Positions 13,255 to 35,335 of a stretch of 35,335 nucleotides of DNA are shown in pieces. Every line of letters starts with the position of its first letter. The first letter of the stretch is position 1. The stretch lies in the NCBI GenBank assembly GCA_004366205.1, contig SIRW01000014.1:1-35335 (forward strand), in the 5' to 3' direction. The notes under the pieces were generated by a model, which did no database searches, was not told where the DNA came from, and worked only from the letters and a program-made list of their open reading frames with translations. Position numbers and translations under genes: made by a program. Source of the DNA: Actinomycetota bacterium. GTDB taxonomy: Bacteria > Actinomycetota > Acidimicrobiia > Acidimicrobiales > CADCSY01.

Positions 13255-14652
13255 TCAGTGCCCGGCGCCGTCCCCCGCGGCCACGTCGCCCGCCCGGAAC
13301 AGGCCGAGCGCACCCTTGCCCACGTTCGAGAACTTGTGGGTGACGATGGGGTACAGGCCCGCCTCGTCGAAGGTGAACTCCACGAAGCCACCCTGGGAGG
13401 GCTGCAGGTCGATCGCCTGCGAGCCGCCCTGGCCCGGCCCGGGCCGCAGCAGGTAGGTGCCCTCCTTGAAGACGGTGTCGAACACGGTTCCCACGATGTG
13501 GAACGCCGAGTTCTCCGACGGGCCGTTGTTCTGCACCCAGGCCCGGACGCGCTCGCCGGGCTCGACCCGGATCGGCGCGTGCAGGTACTGGTTCACGTAG
13601 CCGTTGAACGTGACGGCGTCCCAGGCGTCGCGCTGCATCTTCGTGAGGTCACCGGGCTGGCCCTCAGGGCCCAGGTACAGCTCGGACTGCACGAAGACGA
13701 ACTCGTGGTCCACGGGGGCCAGGTCGGGCGGGTCGATGATGATGGCGCCGTGCATGCCGTTGCCGATGTGGTGCAGCGCAGGGGCCGTGCCGCAGTGGTA
13801 CATGAAGCTGCCGGCGTGCTTGGCCTCGAACTGGTAGACGAGCGACTCACCCGGGGCGATCGTGCGCATCTCGTCGTTCCAGGCGACCTTCGAGGCGTGG
13901 AAGTCGATGGAGTGGCCGATCGCGCCCTCGTTGACGAGCGTGACCGTGAAGATGTCACCGACCTTGCCGCGCAGGGTGGGGCCGGGCACCTGGTCGTTGA
14001 ACGTCCACAGCTCCTGGGTGACGCCCGGCGCGACCTCGATGACCGTCTCGGTGGCCCGCAGCGTGATCTCGTGGTTGGTCCCGCCGGGGGCGGGCGCCAG
14101 GTTCGGGTCGAACGGCCGCCACTCCGGTGCGGGGGTGGCGTTGAAGTCGATGACCGCGCCGTCGCCGCCACCACCGTGGGCGCCGCTGCCGGCGGGCGCA
14201 GCCGCTGCTGCGCCCTTCACGAAGATGTCGAGCACCATGCCGCCGGCTTCGTGGCCGGGCACGGTGCACACCAGCCGCGTGTGCTCGGTGAGCACGCCGA
14301 GCTCGAGGGTCTCCGACGCGCCGGGGTCGAGCATGCTCGTCACGGGGCCGCCGGGGATGCCGAGGTCATGGGGCATCGCCCCGCCGTTGCTGACCTCGAG
14401 CACGACGGGCCGGCCCGGTTCCACGTCCAGCGAGCTCGGCGACACGTACAGGTCGCCCAGCTCCACCTGGAACACCTGGGCGGGTCCCGCGGCCGCGGCC
14501 GGCGCCGCGTCATCGCCCGTACGCAGCGCCAGCCCTGTGGCGATGAGCGCGAACACGGCGGCGAAGCAGGCGACGCCGAAGGCGACGGCCATCCAGCTCT
14601 CGGCCGCCCGGCCGTGGTCTCGCTCCGTTCGGGTCTCGGTCGTGGTCGTCAT
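13255..14652 (-). CDS. nirK: Membrane-anchored NirK-type copper nitrite reductase with extra N-terminal cupredoxin domain
   Basis: 465 residues. A membrane segment (about 20-43) leads to a cupredoxin domain (about 60-146) with type 1 copper ligands His95, Cys129, His134 and Met139. A linker follows, then two NirK cupredoxin domains (about 165-455). These keep the type 1 site (His247, Cys287, His295, Met300), the type 2 ligands (His252, His286, His439) and the active-site Asp250 and His385. NirK reduces nitrite to NO at the outer face of the membrane; the extra domain probably relays electrons, as in three-domain NirKs such as that of Hyphomicrobium. Multicopper oxidase activity is a less likely alternative. 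Two DosR-like boxes lie 69-105 bp upstream. Start ATG with GGAG at about -10. Confidence 0.88.
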   Translation of the reverse strand: MTTTTETRTERDHGRAAESWMAVAFGVACFAAVFALIATGLALRTGDDAAPAAAAGPAQVFQVELGDLYVSPSSLDVEPGRPVVLEVSNGGAMPHDLGIPGGPVTSMLDPGASETLELGVLTEHTRLVCTVPGHEAGGMVLDIFVKGAAAAAPAGSGAHGGGGDGAVIDFNATPAPEWRPFDPNLAPAPGGTNHEITLRATETVIEVAPGVTQELWTFNDQVPGPTLRGKVGDIFTVTLVNEGAIGHSIDFHASKVAWNDEMRTIAPGESLVYQFEAKHAGSFMYHCGTAPALHHIGNGMHGAIIIDPPDLAPVDHEFVFVQSELYLGPEGQPGDLTKMQRDAWDAVTFNGYVNQYLHAPIRVEPGERVRAWVQNNGPSENSAFHIVGTVFDTVFKEGTYLLRPGPGQGGSQAIDLQPSQGGFVEFTFDEAGLYPIVTHKFSNVGKGALGLFRAGDVAAGDGAGH

Positions 14653-14720
14653 CGCAGCTCCGTCGTTCCCGGCCGCTTCGCCGGATAGTTCCAGGGTCGG
14701 CTGGAGAAAACCCGGCGGGA

Positions 14721-14735
14721 AGGGTCGAAGGTCCC
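14721..14735 (-). promoter_or_regulatory. DosR-like box before nirK
   Basis: On the minus strand it reads GGGACCTTCGACCCT, one base different from the two boxes at 33825-33887 and close to the mycobacterial DosR/DevR palindrome (GGGAC..., GTCCC or GCCCC). It lies 69 bp upstream of the nirK start; a candidate -10 (AACTAT) lies about 33 bp downstream, fitting an activator site. Confidence 0.55.
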
Positions 14736-14742
14736 AGCGAGC

Positions 14743-14757
14743 AGGGAAGTTGGTCCC
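14743..14757 (-). promoter_or_regulatory. Second, weaker DosR-like box
   Basis: Reads GGGACCAACTTCCCT on the minus strand, centred exactly 22 bp from the first box, about two helical turns. Paired, phased boxes are usual in DosR promoters. It also lies just upstream of the CopD-like gene start. Confidence 0.4.
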
Positions 14758-14768
14758 CGTGCGCGAGG

Positions 14769-15221
14769 GTGGGGACCGTGCGCACCATCGACCCGTGGAC
14801 CCTCGTGCGGTTCCTCCACGTCCTCGCCGCCACCGTGTGGGTGGGTGGCCAGCTCGCGCTCAGCGGCCTCGTGGTGCCGGTGCTGCGCCGGCGAGCCGGC
14901 CTGGGGGAGCGGTCCGAGCTGGCCACCGAGATGGGCCGCCGCTTCGGAATCCTCACGGCCGCCGGCCTGTTCCCGGTCCTGCTGGCGACCGGCCTGGCCA
15001 TGTCGTACCGCTACGGCGTGCAGCTCGAGGGCTTCCAGACCTACGGCTACGGCGCCACCCTGGCGGTCAAGGTGACCCTCGTGTTCGTCGTGCTCGCCCT
15101 GGCCGCCGGGCACGGCATCGCCACCCAGCGGGGCGGCGCCCGCCTGGGGCGCGCGCTCGCCGTGGGGTCGCTGGCCGGTTCGGTCGTCATCGTGCTGCTG
15201 GCGGTGTCGCTGGTGCCCTGA
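14769..15221 (+). CDS. CopD-like four-helix membrane protein
   Basis: 150 residues, four predicted membrane helices (about 12-38, 58-80, 95-117 and 128-148). The first helix contains RFLHVLAATVWVGG, the His-bearing helix of CopD/DUF2269-type proteins; another conserved His is in AAGHGI. Such proteins are linked to copper transport or haem. It is divergent from nirK, so copper supply or electron transfer to the reductase is plausible. GTG 14778 is an alternative start with a better spaced G-rich ribosome site. The HTH regulator follows after 16 bp. Confidence 0.75.
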   Translation: MGTVRTIDPWTLVRFLHVLAATVWVGGQLALSGLVVPVLRRRAGLGERSELATEMGRRFGILTAAGLFPVLLATGLAMSYRYGVQLEGFQTYGYGATLAVKVTLVFVVLALAAGHGIATQRGGARLGRALAVGSLAGSVVIVLLAVSLVP

Positions 15222-33290: not shown

Positions 33291-33752
33291 TCAGGCGGCG
33301 AGGGCCGTCAGGCGGTCGAGGACGGCGTCGAGGAAGCGGCGGCCGACCTCGGCGGCGACCTCCCGGCGCACGACGACCGTCGAGCGGTCGGCCCGGATGA
33401 GCTCGGGGTCGATCTCGAGCAGCAGCTCGGTGCGGGGTGCGACCCCGCCCCGCACCCTGATCACTCGCAGGCTGGCGGCCCCGGCGAGCTCGTGACCCTC
33501 CGCGCTGGTCGCCGCCCACCGGAGTCGCACACCGGCGCTGCGCCGGCCGATCCGTTGCCCGCCCGCCACGGTCACCGACGCCTCGTGGCGGCGGCCGTCG
33601 GTCCGCAGCGCCCGGGAGAGGGCCCGGTCGAGCACCCCGTCGCCCTCGCGGCCGAGCAGGGCCACCACGTCGTCGAGGGAGGCGTCGACGTAGGCGGCAA
33701 CCCGCACGGCTCCGGTGGCCGTCCTTCCAGTCTGCTCGTGTGGCGTGGGCAT
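33291..33752 (-). CDS. Unknown protein, possible START/SRPBCC-like fold
   Basis: 153 residues from ATG 33750-33752 (GGGGAGG about 11 nt upstream). The pattern is an N-terminal strand and helix (GAVRVAAYVDASLDDVVALLG), a run of beta strands, and a long C-terminal helix (REVAAEVGRRFLDAVLDRLTALAA), as in small lipid-binding SRPBCC domains. No family can be named. Diverges from the PPOX-like gene; the gap holds an inverted pair of DosR-like boxes, the nearer one 73 bp upstream of this start. Convergent with the thiolase gene (15-bp gap). Confidence 0.65.
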   Translation of the reverse strand: MPTPHEQTGRTATGAVRVAAYVDASLDDVVALLGREGDGVLDRALSRALRTDGRRHEASVTVAGGQRIGRRSAGVRLRWAATSAEGHELAGAASLRVIRVRGGVAPRTELLLEIDPELIRADRSTVVVRREVAAEVGRRFLDAVLDRLTALAA

Positions 33753-33824
33753 GGCTGCTGGATCCTCCCCGGTCGGCCGCGCTCGTCGTCGCGACAAGGG
33801 TGGAGGAGCCGAGGCCACCGCGCC

Positions 33825-33839
33825 AGGGCCGAAGGTCCC
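33825..33839 (-). promoter_or_regulatory. DosR-like box, left member of an inverted pair
   Basis: Reads GGGACCTTCGGCCCT on the minus strand, identical over 15 bp to the box at 33873-33887 on the plus strand. It lies 73 bp before the minus-strand gene, nearly the same distance as the nirK box from its gene (69 bp). Confidence 0.6.
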
Positions 33840-33872
33840 TCTCGCGCCGGCGGCACCCGGTCGGCCACATTC

Positions 33873-33887
33873 GGGACCTTCGGCCCT
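33873..33887 (+). promoter_or_regulatory. DosR-like box, right member of an inverted pair
   Basis: GGGACCTTCGGCCCT, 36 bp upstream of the GTG of the PPOX-like gene. With an activator box centred near -40, transcription would start at or next to the GTG, so the mRNA may be leaderless; no ribosome-binding site is visible there. Confidence 0.6.
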
Positions 33888-33922
33888 GTCGCGTCCCGTC
33901 CCCGGCCCCGACACTGGTCCAC

Positions 33923-34363
33923 GTGCTGATCGACGAAGGACTCGAACTGCTCGACGAGGAGGAGTGCCTCCGCCTCGTCGACACGGCGGCAGTGGGACGG
34001 GTCGCGACCACGGTAGCGGCGCTGCCGGTCGTGCTCCCGGTGAACTTCGTCGTGCTGGACGGCAACGTGGTGTTCCGGACCGCGGAGGGCACCAAGCTCT
34101 CGGCGGCCGTCCGCAACGCCGTCGTGGCCTTCGAGGTCGACGAGATCGACCGCGACCACCGGCAGGGCTGGAGCGTCCTGTTGATCGGCACCGCTCGCCA
34201 CGTCACCGAGGCCGACGAGGTCGACCGGGCGGCCGCCGCGCTGCCGTCGACCTGGGCCGACGGACGGCGGGAGCACTTCGTCACGATCGAGCCCGAGCTC
34301 GTCTCGGGACGGCGGATCGCGGCGAAGCGCAACGGCCATCGGGCTCCCGCGCCGGGGGCCTGA
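33923..34363 (+). CDS. Pyridoxamine-5'-phosphate-oxidase-like flavin-binding protein
   Basis: 146 residues. PPOX-like split beta-barrel: ECLRLVDTAAVGRVATTV, PVVLPVNFVVLDGNVVFRTAEGTKL, VVAFEVDEID, GWSVLLIGTARHV. This is the common form of small flavin- or deazaflavin-binding proteins in actinobacteria. GTG 33923 is chosen because it fits the family N-terminus (LELLDEEECLRLV); no Shine-Dalgarno site precedes it. In mycobacteria several genes of this family belong to the DosR hypoxia regulon, which agrees with the DosR-like box upstream. Likely redox or flavin-binding stress protein; reaction unknown. Confidence 0.85.
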   Translation: MLIDEGLELLDEEECLRLVDTAAVGRVATTVAALPVVLPVNFVVLDGNVVFRTAEGTKLSAAVRNAVVAFEVDEIDRDHRQGWSVLLIGTARHVTEADEVDRAAAALPSTWADGRREHFVTIEPELVSGRRIAAKRNGHRAPAPGA

Positions 34364-34662: not shown

Positions 34663-35335
34663 ATGCACCGAGACGACCTGCTACCCGACCGAAGTACCTG
34701 CACGCCCGAGCCGGCGCGGTCCCTGGGGGGACGCCGGCCCGGGCGGGCACCGCGTGCCCTGGCGGCACTGGCCCTGGGCACGGCGATGGCGCTGCTCGCG
34801 GCCGTCGCCACCACCGGGACGCCGGCCGGCGCCGGCGGCCACACCGAGGGCAAGGTCGTGCCCTTCGGCTTCGCCGCCGACCACGGCGCCCCCGCCGGCG
34901 TGCCCATCGTCGACCTCGAGGCCACGCCCTCCGGTCAGGGCTACTGGCTCGTCGACAACGACGGCGGGGTGTTCACCTACGGCGACGCGCCGTTCCACGG
35001 CAGCATGGGCGGCACGGCCCTCGCCGAGCCCGTCGTGGGGATGGCCACCACGCCGGCGGGCGGCGGGTACTGGCTGGTCGCCGCCGACGGCGGGATCTTC
35101 ACCTTCGGCGACGCGCCCTTTCACGGCTCCACCGGTGACGTCCGGCTCAACCAACCCATCGTGGGCATGGCCGCCACCCCCACGGGCGCCGGCTACTGGT
35201 TCGTGGCCGCCGACGGCGGGATCTTCACCTTCGGCGACGCCGCGTTCCAGGGGAGCCTGGGCGACCTGCGCCTCAACCGCCCCATCGTGGGCATGGCCGC
35301 CACGCCCTCGGGCAGCGGCTACTGGCTCGTGGCGT
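34663..35335 (+). CDS. Secreted 42-residue-repeat surface protein (partial, runs off the window)
   Basis: Open from ATG 34663 to the window end with no stop (224 codons). GAGGAGAGGAC just before the ATG is a strong ribosome site. A signal peptide (about residues 25-56, RAPRALAALALGTAMALLAA) is followed from residue 93 by 42-residue units: GYWLVDNDGGVFTYGDAPFH, GYWLVAADGGIFTFGDAPFH, GYWFVAADGGIFTFGDAAFQ and the start of a fourth. Same family as the protein at 3972-4898. More units and perhaps an enzymatic domain are expected beyond the window. Confidence 0.85.
   Translation, partial: MHRDDLLPDRSTCTPEPARSLGGRRPGRAPRALAALALGTAMALLAAVATTGTPAGAGGHTEGKVVPFGFAADHGAPAGVPIVDLEATPSGQGYWLVDNDGGVFTYGDAPFHGSMGGTALAEPVVGMATTPAGGGYWLVAADGGIFTFGDAPFHGSTGDVRLNQPIVGMAATPTGAGYWFVAADGGIFTFGDAAFQGSLGDLRLNRPIVGMAATPSGSGYWLVA
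34939..35335 (+). repeat. Tandem 126-bp coding repeats (array continues past the window)
   Basis: Three complete units and the start of a fourth, each coding 42 residues, e.g. the shared GCCGCCGACGGCGGGATCTT. DNA-level similarity between units is high, so length variation between strains is likely. Confidence 0.8.

Follow-up and report, generated by a model that had tools for sequence, protein, structure and literature searches.

An inverted pair of DosR-type boxes between a PPOX-family gene and an orphan gene in a genome of the order Acidimicrobiales

Two copies of a 15-mer on opposite strands were observed between two divergently oriented genes in the stretch of DNA analysed here (hereafter the window; 35,335 nucleotides, contig SIRW01000014.1 of assembly GCA_004366205.1, Acidimicrobiales), which raises the question of whether they form one palindromic operator, a structural element or two separate promoter sites, and which regulator would read them. 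The first-pass annotation had described a perfect inverted pair of 15-bp boxes, 48 bp apart, between divergent genes, and this description was confirmed to the base. Both copies of GGGACCTTCGGCCCT are free of mismatches, one being located on the plus strand at 33873-33887, in the promoter of the PPOX gene, and the other on the minus strand at 33825-33839, facing the divergent gene; they are 48 bp apart from start to start and make up a perfect 15-bp inverted repeat (33825-33887) with a spacer of 33 nt. The flanking genes are also as described earlier, namely a gene for a PPOX / FDOR-type flavin-binding protein (33923-34363, plus strand, GTG start at 33923; PF12900, Pyridox_ox_2) and a gene for an uncharacterised protein of 153 aa (33291-33752, minus strand, ATG at 33752), designated here the orphan gene. 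The downstream end of the window (34663-35335) is occupied by the beginning of a probably secreted repeat protein, with repeats like GYWLVAADGGIFTFGDA, whose gene is cut by the contig end and for which no Pfam match was found.

The box in the genome and at the NirK-like locus

The window box agrees at 14 of 15 positions with the published mycobacterial DosR consensus, GGGACTTNNGNCCCT (PMC6448022). A weight matrix trained without both window boxes scored them at 24.7 and 23.4, within the range of the top training sites. Matches in the window with up to three mismatches were at chance level (3 found against 3.8 expected); as this loose count was uninformative, the test was moved to the whole genome, which was examined by pattern search and in fetched stretches where genes were called by a simple codon-usage caller. 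With at most one mismatch, the 15-mer was found 15 times in the 3.44 Mb genome, against none for the reversed (non-complemented) pattern, and a chance origin of the box was rejected on this control. All 15 matches are intergenic and situated in promoters, and each of them, read from GGGACC to CCCT, faces a start codon. The boxed targets include USPs, a divergent Hsp20/CBS-domain pair, a divergent USP/P-type ATPase pair, pyruvate phosphate dikinase (PPDK), pyruvate:ferredoxin oxidoreductase (PFOR), phosphoketolase and a CBS-PPOX operon opposite a threonine-synthase-like gene, and most of the other targets are preceded by single boxes. The genome's three PPOX paralogues are all found in boxed operons, the third with a weak box. 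This target set matches the DosR/OsdR regulon.

Several further sites were recorded in the same genome. A second back-to-back pair, 49 bp from start to start, is located at L047:5148-5210 (contig C99) between the Hsp20 and CBS-domain genes, with the outward geometry of the window pair and a typical Dos target on either side. On contig C53, a weak near-palindromic box (L056:11654-11668) was found between a USP-USP-PPOX operon and the gene of a second multicopper oxidase (L056:11767-13095), which has cupredoxin domains; an additional box, GTGACCTCCGGCCCT, missed by the strict pattern, lies upstream of a USP gene (L056:15548-15562) and is followed by TACGGT approx. 23 bp further on. On contig C5, a box at L037:6368-6381, between the gene of an ECF-type sigma factor and one that has no Pfam match, is aimed at the latter.

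In the window itself, a box of the same class, GGGACCTTCGACCCT (14721-14735, minus strand), precedes a gene (13255-14652, minus strand) for a NirK-like copper nitrite reductase that carries a cupredoxin domain at its N-terminus. It differs from GGGACCTTCGGCCCT by one base, from which the first-pass annotation had concluded that both loci belong to one regulon. This tie is supported by the agreement of box, orientation and -10 spacing, the predicted -10 element being GACCCT (14693-14698, minus strand), 22 bp past the box. The enzyme aligns with the solved NirK 3wi9 through the copper-ligand motifs and reaches 147 bits with the NCBIfam equivalog TIGR02376, below its cut-off of 296, and is therefore named NirK-like. 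A weaker box, GGGAAGTTGGTCCCC (14744-14758, plus strand), faces a CopD-like gene (14778-15221, plus strand). No title or abstract seen in a partial literature search reported nirK in a DosR regulon.

Regulator, sensor and distribution across the order

A response regulator with receiver and LuxR/GerE domains is encoded at L056:14370-15041 (contig C53). Its best solved relative is DevR (253 bits, whereas the second-best scores 143), and its recognition helix, FLAEKTVKNYVS, is identical to that of DevR, including K179, K182 and N183, the residues with which DevR reads DNA. By these measures a clear orthologue of DosR is present in the genome, and the earlier designation of the boxes as DosR-like is supported both by the consensus, matched at all but one position, and by the identical DNA-contact residues. 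The divergent neighbour of dosR (L056:13158-14297, contig C53) encodes a sensor kinase with GAF, HisKA_3 and HATPase_c domains. Its GAF domain is most similar to the haem domain of DevS, and equivalents of the haem ligand His149 and of Tyr171 (PMC4082495) are kept. Its domains and the conserved His149 suggest a haem-GAF partner kinase with predicted haem binding. A second GAF domain is absent from the sensor, and no further close homologue of it was found in the genome; since DosS and DosT possess two (GAF-A and GAF-B), we call the kinase DosS-like and do not class it as DosS/DosT. The gap between dosR and the sensor gene was searched for a box and none was found, so autoregulation of the M. 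tuberculosis type was not seen.

The distribution of boxes was followed in 198 genomes of the order, DosR being counted as present at a best match of 1e-60 or better. Genomes with DosR carry a mean of 2.98 strict boxes, compared with 0.66 in those without, the reversed-pattern controls amounting to 0.64 and 0.45 per genome, respectively. The PPOX family is present in 76 of the 106 DosR genomes versus 7 of the 92 others, and 76 of the 83 PPOX genomes have DosR; as the genomes are related and not fully independent, the significance of the co-occurrence is inflated. Lack of conservation in orthologous promoters had been named as the observation that would speak against the boxes. They were found to be conserved: a box of at least 14 bits is present in 16 of 41 PPOX promoters (the own genome's three included), compared with 17 of 465 windows taken from these loci as controls. 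No box could be recognised for about half of the PPOX homologues, and some orthologous PPOX promoters possess, at varying distances upstream, a second one in inverted orientation. Among named records, the closest DosR relatives are mostly from Acidimicrobiales and other actinobacterial assemblies, in which boxes near PPOX genes recur. One genome of the same family (G002) has seven strict boxes and four PPOX genes with no strong DosR match, which perhaps reflects an assembly gap or a different regulator.

Promoter anatomy and the two divergent genes

In 15 of 23 sites of the own genome, a NANNNT hexamer stands 22–23 bp past the 15-mer, whereas approx. 1.6 would be expected. When this hexamer is taken as the -10 element, the box centre falls at about -42.5, which in DevR promoters is the position of the activator overlapping the -35 element, and the boxes are predicted to be such sites in activated promoters. 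The predicted -10 elements of the window pair are GACACT for the PPOX gene (33910-33915, plus strand; predicted box centre at about -42.5) and CACCCT for the divergent gene (33797-33802, minus strand), each 22 bp past its box. As a refinement of the earlier description, the pair is best read as two oriented sites, each with a -10 element of its own, and not as one palindromic operator. The -10 signal is weak among exact matches in other genomes (L079-L107) because these are partly coincidences in coding regions, several of them apparently representing one conserved coding motif.

All twelve PPOX promoters with the layout of the window have the start codon 34–35 nt past the box and 6–7 nt past NANNNT, an arrangement to which shuffled spacers conform in a mean of 0.46 of 12 cases; the twelve were selected on a box approx. 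42–52 bp from the aligned start, the -10 element being no criterion of selection. As a start codon 6–7 nt past the -10 element leaves no space for a leader, the PPOX mRNA is predicted to be leaderless, with a transcription start at 33922-33923, which lends support to a suggestion of the first-pass annotation. Leaderless mRNAs make up approximately a quarter of mycobacterial transcripts (PMC6448022). The remaining PPOX promoters, in which the box is more distant, are presumably leadered.

The PPOX protein itself matches PF12900 with 112.7 bits (gathering cut-off 27). Its best solved relative is PDB 6eci, which we take to be Fsq, and it may be an Fsq-like protein with a putative role in FAD sequestration. 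The mycobacterial FDOR proteins Rv0080, Rv3129 and Fsq are members of the dormancy regulon (PMC13284343), in line with what the first-pass annotation had stated for the PPOX family. On the other side, the orphan gene is preceded by a Shine-Dalgarno sequence, GGAGGA (33763-33768, minus strand), and its mRNA would be leadered, with a predicted 5' UTR of about 38 nt; GC contents of 0.82/0.56/0.92 at the three codon positions are of the coding type. It has no close relatives in 84,980 GTDB species, and a single short and doubtful match was all that the 198 genomes of the order yielded. The best of the single-sequence structural models reached a mean pLDDT of 74 (the other four 30–48) and resembled SRPBCC/START folds, TTHA0849 and polyketide aromatase/cyclases among them, with a Foldseek probability of 1.0 but a modest TM of approx. 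0.45. We tentatively assign the protein to the SRPBCC/START helix-grip fold. Judged by its anatomy, this is probably a genuine gene, and the left box probably drives it.

We consider it very probable that the pair represents two independent DosR-activated promoters, placed back to back and belonging to one regulon with nirK. Both boxes might instead serve the PPOX gene alone, as a proximal and a distal site, with the orphan gene unregulated or not real. The scarcity of relatives of the orphan gene and the second inverted box of some orthologous PPOX promoters would fit such an arrangement, as would the use of paired sites by DosR, which is a known habit of this regulator. However, the left box is aimed away from the PPOX gene, its own -10 element stands at the usual distance of 22 bp, and a good Shine-Dalgarno sequence and an open reading frame with coding-type GC come next; most other targets have single boxes, and the boxes of the Hsp20/CBS pair likewise face outwards, towards two typical Dos targets. 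This arrangement is therefore unlikely in our estimation.

Another regulator of the NarL/FixJ type, or some other factor, could read the boxes in place of the DosR orthologue, given that the genome encodes ten GerE-domain proteins and that 3–7 boxes occur in a few genomes where no strong match to DosR is present. Against this, box counts track the presence of DosR, the published DosR consensus fits the box, the targets are those of the classical set and the DNA-contact residues of DevR are identical in the orthologue, which together make a different regulator very improbable. Least credible, and scarcely to be entertained, is that the inverted repeat is a product of chance or a structural element, such as a hairpin, terminator or cruciform: folding would be possible for a perfect 15-bp repeat spaced by 33 nt, but the same 15-mer stands singly at many other promoters, and no transcript end is expected between divergent starts. 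Hairpin and terminator were rejected on the genome-wide single boxes, the location between divergent starts and the absence of a T-run.

Relation to known systems and implications

Returning to two back-to-back promoters of one regulon, we infer DosR binding and phosphorylation, activation, the signal and the exact transcription starts along the following lines. The haem-GAF kinase encoded beside DosR would sense low oxygen, NO or CO and phosphorylate DosR, a dimer of which, bound at about -42.5, would bring RNA polymerase to the -10 element 22–23 bp downstream. From the right promoter, the PPOX/Fsq-like flavin-binding protein would be expressed through a leaderless mRNA, and from the left one the orphan, tentatively SRPBCC-fold, protein through a leadered mRNA, and the same DosR would control the NirK-like gene and approx. 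15–20 other promoters.

This is an extension of a known DosR-type system to another group, and no new system is revealed. With the DosR/DevR regulon of M. tuberculosis and M. smegmatis, the locus shares a box one base off GGGACTTNNGNCCCT, the class of regulator and sensor, and as targets USP, Hsp20, CBS, P-type ATPase and PPOX/FDOR genes (Rv0080, Rv3129, fsq); it differs in belonging to an Acidimicrobiales relative, in its one-GAF sensor and boxless dosR-sensor gap, and in the addition of NirK-like, PFOR, phosphoketolase and orphan targets. OsdR/OsdK of Streptomyces coelicolor (SCO0204/SCO0203) uses a 16-bp palindrome, AGGGCCGATCGGCCCT, and its targets comprise USPs, PPDK and the pyridoxamine 5'-phosphate oxidase SCO0214, with a site at -50 (PMC5069765). 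That list is close to the boxed genes described here (USPs, PPDK, PPOX-type), whereas the half-sites of the present box are asymmetric, one being mycobacterial (GGGAC) and one streptomycete-like (GGGCC). The FAD-sequestering Fsq of M. smegmatis (MSMEG_5243) is of the same FDOR/PPOX superfamily and is likewise encoded by a dormancy-regulon gene (PMC13284343), but the window protein is likened to it by sequence alone, its cofactor and function being predicted.

Because the promoter geometry is fixed, targets and transcription starts should be predictable from sequence, and the PPOX promoter offers a clear test case for the activation of a leaderless mRNA. As the NirK-like enzyme, which would make NO, belongs to a regulon whose haem sensor is able to answer NO, the regulon of these Acidimicrobiales may activate itself, nitrite-derived NO reinforcing DosR; we regard this as a speculative and rather unlikely idea which, if true, would mean self-activation by way of a sensor reduced to one GAF domain and, in part, of target mRNAs that have no leader. 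More broadly, the dormancy regulon of tuberculosis bacteria and Streptomyces would reach deep into the uncultured Acidimicrobiales, and a circuit shared by a NirK-like gene and a PPOX protein of the flavin-binding type would tie dormancy control to nitrogen-oxide metabolism.
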